From Actinomycetota bacterium (lineage in GTDB: Bacteria; Actinomycetota; Actinomycetes; Actinomycetales; Microbacteriaceae), in contig JAIUPK010000002.1 of assembly GCA_020160915.1 (NCBI GenBank), positions 186,001 to 250,000 of the forward strand: 64,000 nucleotides of DNA. Direction: 5' to 3'. Below, in pieces: positions 16,945 to 22,863 of this stretch (its first letter is position 1; every line of letters begins with the position of its first letter). The notes beneath the pieces are model-generated. The model saw nothing but the letters and a program-made list of their open reading frames with translations, did no database searches and was not told where the DNA came from. Both the position numbers and the translations under genes were made by a program.

Positions 16945-18000
16945 ATGTCACGCATAGCGGCGGTTGCCCCCGTCCTGCCCGCGTTCGCCTACACCCAGGC
17001 GGAGATCACCGCTGAGCTCGCTCCGCTGATATCGACGGTGCCGGGCAAGCGGGCCGTGCTTGAGCGGATGCACGCGTCATCAGGTATCGGCACCCGACAC
17101 ACAGCGCTGCCGCTGGAGCGCTACCGCGACCTCGGCGACTTCCGTCAGGCCAACGACACGTTCATCGAGGTCGCCACGGATCTCGCTGAGCGGGCTCTGC
17201 GCACGGCGCTCGCCGACGCGGGCCTCGAAGCGCCCGACGTGGACTTCGTCATGTTCACCTCGGTCACGGGAATCTCGGCGCCCAGCGTGGACGCCCTGCT
17301 CGTGTCGCGCCTGGGCCTTCGTCCCGATGTGAAGCGGTTGCCCTCGTTCGGCCTCGGCTGCGTGGGGGGAGCCGCGGGCATCGCACGGGTCAATGACTAC
17401 CTGGTGGGGCATCCGGATGAGGTGGGCGTTCTGCTGAGCGTCGAGCTGTGTTCGCTGACTCTGCAGCGCGACGACGAGACGATCGCCAACTTCGTGGCGA
17501 CGGGGCTGTTCGGCGATGGTGCGGCAGCGGTCGTCATGGTCGGCGAGGACCGCGCTGAGCCCGGCCCCCGCATCGTCGACACCCGCAGCTCGTTCTTCCC
17601 CGACACCCGCGAGGTGATCGGCTGGAACATCGGCGGCTCCGGCTTCGAGATCGTGCTGACCGCGGGCGTCGCGGACGTGATCGAGCGGCACTTCCCCGTC
17701 GAGGTCGCCGCCTTCCTGGCAGACAACGGTCGAGGCATCGCGGATGTCGCAGCCTGGGTCGCGCACCCCGGCGGCCCGCGCGTTCTGGACGCCTTCGCGC
17801 ACTCGCTCGACCTGCCGAAGGACAGGTTCGACCTGAGCTGGGCATCGCTCGATCGGGTGGGCAACCTGTCGTCGTCGGCCGTGCTGCACGTGCTCGCCGA
17901 CACGATCACGGCCGGCGTCACGCCGGGCGGTACCGGTCTGCTCTTCGCGCTCGGCCCCGGGGTGAGTGCCGAGTTCGTGCTGCTGGAGTGGCCGTCGTGA
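16945..18000 (+). CDS. srsA: Type III polyketide synthase (phenolic-lipid synthase, SrsA-like)
   Basis: A 351-residue chalcone-synthase-fold enzyme with the full catalytic triad: Cys139 in FGLGCVGGAAG, His274 in WVAHPGGPRVL and Asn307 in RVGNLSSS. It condenses a fatty acyl starter with malonyl-CoA units to alkylresorcinols or alkylpyrones. The three-gene order (synthase, ICMT-type methyltransferase, FAD hydroxylase) matches Streptomyces srsABC, which makes methylated phenolic lipids and quinones for membranes; this is why I prefer SrsA to a naphthalene-type synthase. TAGGTT (16933-16938) lies six bases before ATG 16945 with no ribosome binding site. The stop overlaps the next start (GTGA). 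Confidence 0.88.
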   Translation: MSRIAAVAPVLPAFAYTQAEITAELAPLISTVPGKRAVLERMHASSGIGTRHTALPLERYRDLGDFRQANDTFIEVATDLAERALRTALADAGLEAPDVDFVMFTSVTGISAPSVDALLVSRLGLRPDVKRLPSFGLGCVGGAAGIARVNDYLVGHPDEVGVLLSVELCSLTLQRDDETIANFVATGLFGDGAAAVVMVGEDRAEPGPRIVDTRSSFFPDTREVIGWNIGGSGFEIVLTAGVADVIERHFPVEVAAFLADNGRGIADVAAWVAHPGGPRVLDAFAHSLDLPKDRFDLSWASLDRVGNLSSSAVLHVLADTITAGVTPGGTGLLFALGPGVSAEFVLLEWPS

Positions 18001-18518
18001 GTGTCATCCTGTACATCGCCTTCGTGCTCGCGACCGGGGTCGAGCGGCTCTACGAGTTGCGGGTCTCGAAGCGCAATGCCGTGACCGCCTTCGCCCAGGG
18101 CGGCCGGGAGTACGGTCAGCGCCACTTCCCGTGGATGGTCGCACTGCACACGGGTCTGCTGCTGGCCTGCATCGCGGAGGTCGTGCTGCTCGATCGACCG
18201 TTCATCCCCTGGCTGGGCTGGCCCATGCTGGTGATCGCGGTGCTCTGCCAGGCCGCCCGGTACTGGATCATCTCCTCGCTCGGCTCGCAGTGGAACACCC
18301 GGGTGATCGTGGTGCCCGGTGCCGCCCGGGTCGTCGCGCGCGGACCGTACCGCTGGTTCACCCACCCCAACTACGTGGTCGTCGCCGTCGAGGGCATCGC
18401 ACTGCCGCTGGTGCACACCGCGTGGATCACCGCGATCGCGTTCACTGTGCTGAACGCGGTGCTGCTGCTCGGGTTCCGCATCCCCACCGAGAACCGTGCG
18501 CTGCGCGAACTGACATGA
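17997..18518 (+). CDS. srsB: Isoprenylcysteine-carboxyl-methyltransferase family protein (SrsB-like)
   Basis: A 173-residue integral membrane methyltransferase with four to five hydrophobic helices. The ICMT signature is visible as VARGPYRWFTHPNYVVV in the C-terminal half, where SAM binds. In srsABC clusters this protein methylates the hydroxyl of alkylresorcinols; that role is inferred from gene order. I choose GTG 17997, which overlaps the synthase stop (GTGA) and has GGAG eight bases upstream; GTG 17988 is an alternative three codons earlier. It ends in an ATGA overlap with the FAD gene. Confidence 0.85.
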   Translation: MSVILYIAFVLATGVERLYELRVSKRNAVTAFAQGGREYGQRHFPWMVALHTGLLLACIAEVVLLDRPFIPWLGWPMLVIAVLCQAARYWIISSLGSQWNTRVIVVPGAARVVARGPYRWFTHPNYVVVAVEGIALPLVHTAWITAIAFTVLNAVLLLGFRIPTENRALRELT

Positions 18519-19537
18519 CCGACGTCGATGTGCTGGTCGTCGGCGGTGGACCGGTCGGGCTCGCTTCGGCGATCGAGGCGCGGCTCGCCGGGCTCACGGT
18601 CGCACTAGTCGAGCCTCGCGACGGCGACGTCGACAAGGCCTGCGGCGAGGGACTGATGCCCGGCGCTCTGCCGTTGCTCGCCCGGCTCGGCGTCGACCCC
18701 GACGGGATGCCGCTGCGCGGGGTCTCGTATCGTACCGAGACGCGGCGCGCCGACCACCTGTTCCGCTCGGGTGAGGGCAGGGGGGTTCGCCGCACGACGC
18801 TGCACCGCGCGCTCGCCGATCGCGCAACGGAGCTGGGCATCACGCGCGTCGCGGCTCGCGTCGAGGCGGTGCTACAGACCAACAGCACCGTGACGGCCGC
18901 CGGGCTCACCGCCCGGTACCTGCTGGCCTGCGACGGGCTGCATTCGAGTGTGCGACGCCAGGTCGGGCTGGAGCGCGCCGTGCGCGGATCGCGCCGGTTC
19001 GGTCTGAGGCGACACTTCGCCGTTGCGCCGTGGAACGACCTCATCGAGGTGCACTGGACCCGCGAGGCCGAGGTGTACATCACGCCCATCGCCCCCGGCC
19101 TCACCGGCGTCGCCGTGCTCGGCCCGCCGCGAACCGACTTCGACACCGCCGTCGCGGCGGTTCCCGAGCTGGCCGAGCGGCTCGCGGGTGTTGACGCCGT
19201 CACCGAGGTACGTGGCGCGGGCCCGTTCCGCCAGCGGGCTGCAGCACGCACGGCCGGCCGGGTGCTGCTCGTCGGAGACGCGTCGGGCTACGTCGACGCG
19301 ATCACCGGGGAAGGTCTCCGACTCGGCTTCGAGCAGGCGCACGTCGCGGTGGCGGCGGTGGCCGATGACACTCCGACGCGCTATGAGAGGGAGTGGCGCA
19401 GGGTGACGCGCGACTTCCGCGTGCTCACGCACGGTCTGGTTGCGGCGGCAGGCTCGCCGCTGCGTGGTGGCATCGTGCCCGCGGCATCCGCTCTGCCCGG
19501 TCTGTATGGCGCGATAGTGGAGCGGCTCGCCCGCTAA
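18515..19537 (+). CDS. srsC: FAD-dependent monooxygenase (SrsC-like)
   Basis: A 340-residue flavoprotein of the geranylgeranyl-reductase/PHBH group. The FAD site is VVGGGPVGLASAIEARLAG near the N-terminus, the second flavin motif is LLVGDASGYVDAITGEGLRL near 260-280, and LLACDGLHSSVRR is the DG motif of aromatic hydroxylases. The CGEGLMPGAL element is typical of the geranylgeranyl-reductase-like branch. In the srs pathway the homologous enzyme hydroxylates the resorcinol ring on the way to quinones; that role is inferred from context. ATG 18515 overlaps the previous stop by four bases. Its TAA stop overlaps the stop of the convergent MarR gene by four bases. Confidence 0.85.
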   Translation: MTDVDVLVVGGGPVGLASAIEARLAGLTVALVEPRDGDVDKACGEGLMPGALPLLARLGVDPDGMPLRGVSYRTETRRADHLFRSGEGRGVRRTTLHRALADRATELGITRVAARVEAVLQTNSTVTAAGLTARYLLACDGLHSSVRRQVGLERAVRGSRRFGLRRHFAVAPWNDLIEVHWTREAEVYITPIAPGLTGVAVLGPPRTDFDTAVAAVPELAERLAGVDAVTEVRGAGPFRQRAAARTAGRVLLVGDASGYVDAITGEGLRLGFEQAHVAVAAVADDTPTRYEREWRRVTRDFRVLTHGLVAAAGSPLRGGIVPAASALPGLYGAIVERLAR

Positions 19538-20209: not shown

Positions 20210-20869
20210 TCAGCCCAGCAGCAACGGAAGCAGCTCGCGCGGGTGGCCGACCTGGGCGATGGAGCCCTGCTCCTCGCCCGGCTTGCCATAACCCCAGGTG
20301 ACGAAGATCGAGGGCATGCCGTTGGCCGCGGCACCCTCGACGTCGTAGTCGCGGTCTCCCACCATCACGGGGCGACTGGTATCGACCCCGATCATGCGGA
20401 ACCGGGTCAGCGCCTCGGCGATGACGTCTTTCTTGGCGCTGCGGATCTCGTCGATCGACGAACCGGAGATCACGCGGAAGTTCGCCGTGAGGTTGCCGTG
20501 GTCGAGGATGATCGACGCGGGGAACTCGGGCTTCGAGGTGGCCAGTGCGAGCGGGGTTCCCGACTGGTGGATCGTGCGCAGCACGTGGGGGATCCCCTCG
20601 AAGATCGGGGCACCGGTGCCGCCGTGCTCGAGGTAGTGGTCGCGGTAGATGGCCAGTGCCTGGGCGGCCTGCGCCGGCGTCATCCCCGCCCGGTCGCGGA
20701 ACGAATCGAGGATCGGCGGGCCGACCCACTCCCGCAGCTCCTCGGGGGAGGGCACCGGAAGCCCCAACTCCTCGAACATGTACCCGAGCGACGCCGTGAT
20801 GCCGGGAGCGGAGTCCGCGATCGTGCCATCCAGGTCGAACAGGATGCAGGTCCAATCGGGAGCGCTCAC
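20210..20869 (-). CDS. HAD-superfamily phosphatase, Gph-like
   Basis: A 219-residue haloacid-dehalogenase phosphatase of the phosphoglycolate phosphatase type. Motif I FDLDGT (11-16) holds the nucleophilic Asp, motif II is ALATSKP, motif III has SAKKDVIAEAL, and motif IV is MVGDRDYDVEGA. The helical cap lies between motifs I and II. The likely substrate is a small phosphate ester such as 2-phosphoglycolate, but this family is promiscuous. Start is GTG 20869, with TATTCT six bases upstream and no ribosome binding site. It lies just downstream of nucS on the same strand, with its own probable promoter. Confidence 0.87.
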   Translation of the reverse strand: MSAPDWTCILFDLDGTIADSAPGITASLGYMFEELGLPVPSPEELREWVGPPILDSFRDRAGMTPAQAAQALAIYRDHYLEHGGTGAPIFEGIPHVLRTIHQSGTPLALATSKPEFPASIILDHGNLTANFRVISGSSIDEIRSAKKDVIAEALTRFRMIGVDTSRPVMVGDRDYDVEGAAANGMPSIFVTWGYGKPGEEQGSIAQVGHPRELLPLLLG

Positions 20870-20873
20870 TGAA

Positions 20874-21567
20874 TCAGAATAGGCGGCTGTGCGAGTCGTC
20901 GAGTCCGCGCATGGCGTCGTAGTCGAGCACCAGACAGCGGATGCCGCGATCCTGGGCCAGCGTGCGGGCCTGCGGTTTGATCTCCTGGGCGGCGAAGACT
21001 CCCGCCACCGGCGCGAGCAATGGGTCGCGATTCATGAGTTCGAGGTAGCGGGTGAGCTGCTCGACGCCGTCGATGTCGCCGCGCCGCTTGATCTCGACGG
21101 CGATGCTGCCGCCCGCGGCATCCGTCGCCAGGATGTCGACCGGGCCGATGGCCGTCATGTACTCGCGACGCACCAGCCGGGTGCCCTCACCGAGCAGTTC
21201 GATCTGCGGCGAGCAGCTTCTGCAGGTGGGCCTCGACGCCGTCCTTCTGCAGCCCGGGGTCGTGGCCGAGCTCGTGGGCGCTGTCGTGGAGGATCTCGTG
21301 GATCGAGATCACGAGCAGGTCGGCGGTCTTTGCCTGGGCGACCTTCCAGACCTCGATGACGCCCGCCTCGGCCTGCTCGGCCTCAGGCTCGATGACGGCG
21401 ATCGTGCAGGGCGGGCTCATCCAGTTCAGCGGCTTGTAGCTCAGCGAGTCGCTGTGCACCAGCACGCTGCCGTCGGCCTTGACGAGCAGCAGGCGGGTGG
21501 CCAGCGGCAGGTGCGCGCTCAACCGTCCGGCGTAGTCGACCGAGCACTTCGCTACCACCAGACGCAT
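20874..21567 (-). pseudogene. nucS: Frameshifted endonuclease NucS (EndoMS)
   Basis: Two adjoining reading frames together make one NucS, the mismatch-specific endonuclease that replaces MutS/MutL in most actinobacteria. The first (21567-21187) gives the DNA-binding N-terminal domain ([44 protein letters not shown]) and then runs to a stop. The second, in another frame (to 20874), resumes at [17 protein letters not shown] and holds the nuclease motif [20 protein letters not shown] and the tail [15 protein letters not shown]. The break is at 21204-21210: family proteins have two residues between LLA and the following Ile (for example LLAEHI), and the sequence fits loss of two bases there. No slippery heptamer is seen. 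The catalytic Asp and ExK all lie after the break. TAGGCT lies six bases before ATG 21567. Confidence 0.85.
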
Positions 21568-21585: not shown

Positions 21586-22863
21586 CTACGACGACTGAGG
21601 GTCGCTGAAGGTGTCGACGGGAGCGGATGCCTCGCGAGACGGTTCGCGGGCCGCACCCGCGACGACCGCACCGATCGCGCAGAGCACGAGCACCACGAGC
21701 AGCGCGTCGAGCACGCCGACGTACTGGCCCAGGAGCCCGATGACCGGGGGACCCACGAGGAACGCGAAGTAGCCGATCGTGGCGACGGCACTCACGCGGG
21801 CCGCAGCCGTTCGCGGATCGTCGGCGGCGGCCGACATGCCCACGGGGAAGCCGAGCGCGGCTCCGAGGCCCCAGAGCACGGCGCCCGCGACGGCGATCAG
21901 CGGGATCGGAACGAAGATGACGATCACCAGTCCGATCGACGCGAGCAGGAACGATGCACGCAGCACCGCGACCCGGCCGAATCGGTCGAGCAGGAACACC
22001 CCGGCAAGCCGGCCGACGGTCATCGCGGTGACGAAGATGCCGAAGACGAGAGCGCCGTTCGCGTTGCTCACGTCGTGGCCGTCGACCATGGCGATCGCCA
22101 GCCAGTCGTTCGCCGAGCCCTCCGCGAATGCGGCGGCCAGCACGATCACGCCGATCAGGAGGGTGCGCGGGTCCTTCCAGATGCCGAGTCGTCCGCGCCA
22201 GCCCATCGACGAATCATCCGAGGCGACGGGTTCGCCGTTGGCCTCGATGACGGTCTCGGGCTGCACGAAGCGGGTGGCACCGAACGCGACAGCGACGATG
22301 GCGACGGCGACGAGCGCGAGGTGGATGACTATCGGCAGCCCGGCGAGTTCGGCGAGCGCTCCGAGCCCCGCACCCACCATGGTCCCGAAGCTGAAGAAGG
22401 CGTGGAAGATCGGCATGATCGACCGCTGCAGGGCGCGCTCGTTCGCGGCGCCCGACACGTTCATGGCGACGTCGGTGATTCCGGATGCCGCCCCGAAGAT
22501 CAGCAGACCGCCGAACGCGATGATGAAGTTGGGTGTCGTTCCACCGACGCCCGCGATCGCGAGACCGACGGCCGTCGCGGTGAGGCCGGCCGTGATCGCC
22601 GTGCGCGCGCCGATGCGCGCGATGAGGTGGCTGGAGACGATGAGGCCCAGGATCGAGCCGGCTGCCATGCCGAAGATGAGCAGCCCGACCTGAGCGGGCC
22701 CGATCTCGAGGGCGTCGCGCACGGCGGGCAGTCGGGAGACCCAGCTGGCGATGGCGACACCGGGCATGGCGAAGATCAGGAAGACGGCGTTGCGCCACGA
22801 GACGACCTGGCGACGGGTCAGTCCACCGGGGTAGCTGGTGGGGGCGGGCGACGTCTTCGACAT
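21586..22863 (-). CDS. MFS transporter, YbjJ-like
   Basis: A 425-residue, 12-TM major facilitator protein. The N-terminus has WRNAVFLIFAMPGVAIASWVSR and LPAVRDALEIGPAQVGLL, as in the YbjJ-like MFS group often found beside transcription regulators. LLDRFGRVAVLR is the second-half loop signature. Substrate unknown; a sugar or drug are both possible. ATG 22863 has AAGGAA upstream. It is divergent from a LacI-family gene, with a palindrome array between them, so it is probably the regulator's target. Confidence 0.85.
   Translation of the reverse strand: MSKTSPAPTSYPGGLTRRQVVSWRNAVFLIFAMPGVAIASWVSRLPAVRDALEIGPAQVGLLIFGMAAGSILGLIVSSHLIARIGARTAITAGLTATAVGLAIAGVGGTTPNFIIAFGGLLIFGAASGITDVAMNVSGAANERALQRSIMPIFHAFFSFGTMVGAGLGALAELAGLPIVIHLALVAVAIVAVAFGATRFVQPETVIEANGEPVASDDSSMGWRGRLGIWKDPRTLLIGVIVLAAAFAEGSANDWLAIAMVDGHDVSNANGALVFGIFVTAMTVGRLAGVFLLDRFGRVAVLRASFLLASIGLVIVIFVPIPLIAVAGAVLWGLGAALGFPVGMSAAADDPRTAAARVSAVATIGYFAFLVGPPVIGLLGQYVGVLDALLVVLVLCAIGAVVAGAAREPSREASAPVDTFSDPQSS

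Follow-up and report, generated by a model that had tools for sequence, protein, structure and literature searches.

The window analysed here, i.e. the whole stretch of 64,000 nucleotides, belongs to the genome GCA_020160915.1 (hereafter the analysed genome; G-numbers such as G007 denote comparison genomes, and congeners are genomes of the same genus). It carries a gene for the endonuclease NucS/EndoMS that is broken in frame between its two domains, with one gene on each side. The features of this locus are as follows:

20210..20869, minus strand: HAD-family hydrolase, directly downstream of nucS (PF13419, 5.8e-25)
20874..21567, minus strand: nucS (endonuclease NucS/EndoMS), frame-broken, two halves of NCBIfam NF002876, 694 bp compared to 696 bp
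20874..21173, minus strand: C-half ORF of 99 aa with a GTG start, nuclease domain (PF01939, 7.3e-34; 2vld alignment)
21187..21567, minus strand: N-half ORF of 126 aa, NucS N-terminal domain (PF21003, 6.2e-27)
21204..21210, minus strand: frame break, net loss of 2 bases compared to congeners (alignment columns 361-362)
21586..22863, minus strand: MFS transporter, directly upstream of nucS (PF07690, 6.6e-23)

The N-terminal domain (Pfam NucS_N) and the C-terminal domain (NucS_C, with its D-E-K residues) are both present, and the gene shares these domains, the active-site residues and the neighbourhood with actinobacterial NucS/EndoMS (NF002876; PF21003 and PF01939), but its two domains lie in different frames. 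Indeed, the single continuous frame of about 231 codons by which NucS/EndoMS is recognised is replaced by two frames: the N-half ORF goes out of frame and then meets a stop at 21187-21189, and the GTG of the C half begins 14 nt beyond the last base of this stop, preceded by a purine-rich stretch. The halves match complementary parts of NF002876 (1-115 and 126-224), each of them singly staying under the cut-off of the model. D13, E27 and K29 of the C half pair by alignment with D160, E174 and K176 of the archaeal structure 2vld, which we take to be its catalytic (active-site) residues, and all of them fall past the break. The initial annotation had placed the two halves in different frames, the break at 21204-21210 and the catalytic residues behind it, and this is borne out by the alignment gap described below, the domain matches and 2vld. 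In the structure search with the C half, a designed ankyrin protein (6mol, 4.2e-9) scored best among the solved chains, which we regard as a chance resemblance to repeats; NucS and EndoMS came after it at 6e-4 and 7e-4.

The order MFS transporter, nucS, HAD hydrolase is that of the intact copies in most congeners, a relative of the HAD gene being found in the 1.5-kb downstream flank of nucS in 22 of 26 congeners and a relative of the MFS gene in the upstream flank in 19 of 26. nucS is intact in each of the 26 congeners searched, with 696 bp and a single stop, at its end. The only gap in the whole nucS DNA alignment of these genomes and the analysed one is made of the two columns 361-362 in the latter, which is also alone among the 27 genus genomes searched (itself included) in having no match over the family cut-off. 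The comparison with relatives that had been called for at first reading therefore sets one broken gene against 26 continuous ones, and the proposal that two added bases would restore the family length agrees with the 694 bp found. The closest nucS is that of G007 with 86.7% identity, so that the comparison is one between species within the genus. Two further partial matches were seen among the congeners. G017:C40 32826-32987 (L031 1501-1662) is a partial NucS N-terminal stretch with an internal TAG, some 1.6 kb ahead of that genome's intact nucS, and in the fragmented genome G021, which also has a full copy, an additional partial nucS sits at a contig end (G021:C41, L029 9-575).

No homopolymer is found at the break, where runs do not exceed two bases, the longest run in the surrounding 40 nt being of three; the bases are missing outside a homopolymer, as had been stated, and homopolymer slippage is ruled out on these grounds. 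An inverted repeat acting as a deletion hot spot was set aside as well; a perfect short repeat (arm of at least 6) occurs at the break position in 3 of 26 congeners and is absent in the analysed genome.

The analysed genome (2.93 Mb in 8 contigs, completeness 99.75%, contamination 0.03) displays one place matching NucS_C. A second NucS, MutS (MutS_V) and MutL (MutL_C) were not found in it by searches that do find each family in control genomes, which answers the question of a backup raised by the initial annotation. As sequenced, the nucS of this genome would be a loss-of-function allele of a gene whose identity, role and effect of loss are already known.

Other frameshifts were sought by setting the analysed genome against the syntenic G007 over 568,924 bases of contig C2 and 320,000 of C1, i.e. 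889 kb or 30% of the genome. The ORFs tested had at least 110 aa and at least 60% identity; after a codon-position filter, 232 G007 ORFs on C2 (62,627 codons) and 266 on C1 (75,281 codons) were retained, that is 498 ORFs and 137,908 codons, counts in which some shadow ORFs remain. In the filtered runs, two-frame matches were observed for nucS and one more ORF on C2 and for three on C1. The further C2 case proved on alignment to be an indel outside genes, the three C1 cases were classed as shadow ORFs only on how neighbouring ORFs overlap them and score, and the reverse direction gave one case per contig, judged spurious. The first run, made with no codon-position filter, had displayed eight two-frame cases of G007 ORFs against the analysed genome, nucS included, and more in the other three directions; two of the eight were inspected besides nucS, one being a wrong-frame ORF and the other an indel that lies between two genes for ribosomal proteins. 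Over the 889 kb set against G007, no frameshift besides nucS was confirmed.

The age of the break was approached through the constraint on nucS and through the substitution pattern. The broken gene displays two private residues at otherwise invariant NucS positions, both of them I/V exchanges, compared to 0-4 for the 26 relatives (each against the other 25), and its branch length of 0.114 is near that of G007 (0.100). Both halves look as constrained as in the relatives, in keeping with the earlier view that they are otherwise intact and the break recent. At fourfold sites (28 genes, 4,493 sites), changes polarised with G002 as outgroup amount to 161 transitions and 766 transversions on the side of the analysed genome (927 changes) and to 53 transitions and 729 transversions on that of G007 (782 changes). 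This contrast was not accepted because it tracks GC content, the fourfold GC being 0.873 in the analysed genome, 0.955 in G007 and 0.765-0.864 in four of nine relatives, these four having an intact nucS, and because G002 is not placed outside the analysed genome and G007 in a 10-gene tree. The unpolarised test, which relies on 1,236 fourfold columns and whose power is uncalibrated, gives a ratio of transitions to S/W transversions of 1.01 (95% 0.89-1.15), the lowest value, compared to 1.02-1.19 in nine relatives. Hence no raised transition share at fourfold sites is seen by the unpolarised measure against these nine, and the polarised excess was rejected as a mutator footprint on the combined grounds of GC content, tree and unpolarised test. 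The unpolarised ratio speaks against an old loss but leaves a recent one untouched. With nothing pointing to an old loss, we are left with a break of very recent origin or an error in the sequence.

Between the two, a real and very recent loss-of-function mutation in nucS is favoured over a sequence error, with a probability of roughly 0.55. We lean to it because the break lies outside a homopolymer and because nucS is the only frameshift confirmed over the 30% of the genome set against G007. The strain or culture that was sequenced would have lost two bases between the two nucS domains; ribosomes translating the N half would then read a few wrong residues and reach the stop, and the mismatch nuclease would not be made. 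With neither MutS/MutL nor a second NucS found, transition mismatches would go unrepaired and the strain would be a mutator. We infer that the break exists in the cells and that no active protein is made, and a mutator phenotype is predicted, if the break is real, by analogy with NucS deletions in other actinobacteria. Against a real mutation it counts that one error in one gene may occur even with a clean background, seen here over 30% of the genome, that all 26 congeners keep nucS and selection should remove mutators, and that there is no mutational footprint. The initial annotation had put a natural mutator and a sequence error side by side. The broken gene, the lack of any backup found and the recent appearance of the break stand, and the choice between the two now leans to mutation.

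A sequencing or assembly error, in which the nucS of the living strain is intact and reads, consensus or polishing dropped two bases, is possible at somewhat less than even odds. It would fit the 26 intact congeners and the constraint apparent in both halves, as for a working gene, and two-frame nucS genes elsewhere in the family count for it too. A NucS match is present in 381 of 398 sampled Microbacteriaceae genomes (the analysed one included), in 373 of them over the cut-off. Follow-up was confined to the nine genomes, besides the analysed one, whose best match was clearly weak (worse than 1e-90), and left out those with extra matches beside a strong one. Four of these nine show two adjacent NucS matches within a contig in different frames, which meet at a run of 4-5 C or G:

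G306:C1 929589-929601: junction of a two-frame nucS, run of 4-5 C or G
G383:C1 1182938-1182950: junction of a two-frame nucS, run of 4-5 C or G
G404:C1 1104600-1104615: junction of a two-frame nucS, run of 4-5 C or G
G035:C1 1689458-1689464: junction of a two-frame nucS, run of 4-5 C or G

G383, G404 and G035 are single-contig assemblies with a completeness of 86-90%, so that errors of this kind at homopolymers probably do reach the collection, while G306, in 4 contigs, is 100% complete. The remaining five weak cases correspond to contig ends (G139), an N stretch (G405) and single partial matches (G124, G201, G362). The analysed genome differs from the four two-frame cases in that it loses two bases with no run at the break, and this difference leans to a real mutation; a loss of two bases outside a homopolymer is not the usual sequencing error. 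Completeness and contamination of the assembly, together with nucS being the only confirmed frameshift in the part compared, likewise speak against an error. As a control, rplA, a gene of similar length, was matched in 389 of 398 genomes, and its nine weak cases all lack a second match in the same contig, though the single partial matches among them are not all assignable to contig ends. The contrast between nucS and rplA speaks against sequence error but is only indicative, rplA being less dispensable.

Functional rescue of the broken gene, by two polypeptides made when translation stops at 21187 and resumes at the GTG at 21173, or by ribosomal frameshifting, appears improbable. The GTG at 14 nt past the stop with its purine-rich stretch, the D, E and K residues and the C terminus retained by the C half, and the absence of visible decay in either half would suit it, but the continuous frame of the 26 congeners leaves no known selected signal for it, a slippery run is absent at the break, and the N domain of archaeal NucS has a part in dimerisation and mismatch recognition (PMC8228993). 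A split enzyme, i.e. a small deletion that turned the one-chain NucS into a DNA-binding subunit and a nuclease subunit by restart past the stop, we consider less probable still. That the lineage has long been without NucS, as the polarised counts could suggest, is hardly credible given that these counts follow GC content, with G002 not placed as an outgroup by the 10-gene tree, that the unpolarised ratios display no excess, and that an old pseudogene would have decayed, which this nucS has not.

What a real, recent loss of nucS would mean can be set against known systems. In archaeal NucS/EndoMS the N domain serves mismatch binding and dimer formation and the C domain cutting (PMC8228993). In NucS-null Mycobacterium smegmatis and Streptomyces coelicolor, resistance mutations arise at rates 86- to 197-fold higher, and the mutations detected in the former were all transitions (PMC5290159). 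The analysed genome shares with these deletion mutants a predicted lack of the only mismatch-repair nuclease, but they are laboratory-made with a measured phenotype (PMC5290159), whereas the present allele is known from sequence alone. Deletion of nucS in Mycobacterium tuberculosis raises the rate of rifampicin resistance only 2.83-fold (PMC12892979), so that a strong mutator phenotype is not guaranteed. Nine natural missense SNPs of nucS are described among about 1,600 M. tuberculosis strains (PMC5290159); the present change would be natural too, but a frame break. The word "frameshift" is absent from the main text of that report, and no report of a natural nucS frameshift in Microbacteriaceae was found among the NucS/EndoMS papers searched, as judged by titles and abstract openings. 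A real break would be a natural null allele affecting the one mismatch-repair gene that the searches detected in this environmental actinobacterium, and would open mutator behaviour to study with no need for an engineered mutant; an erroneous one would caution against calling mutators from a single gene of an assembly until reads have been checked.

In the family sample, 17 of the 398 Microbacteriaceae genomes are without a NucS match and none of these 17 has a MutS_V match, some of the nine outside genus g14 being incomplete. In g14 itself, all 8 sampled genomes (G039, G120, G181, G230, G274, G311, G342 and G369), of 1.3-1.7 Mb and 98-99% completeness, are without NucS. Known mismatch repair may be absent from these small NucS-less genomes, as judged from NucS and MutS_V alone.

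Elsewhere in the window, inspection of the translations by eye suggests a putative type III polyketide cluster at 16945-19537, where genes for a chalcone/stilbene-synthase-like protein, a small membrane protein and an FAD oxidoreductase stand in a row.
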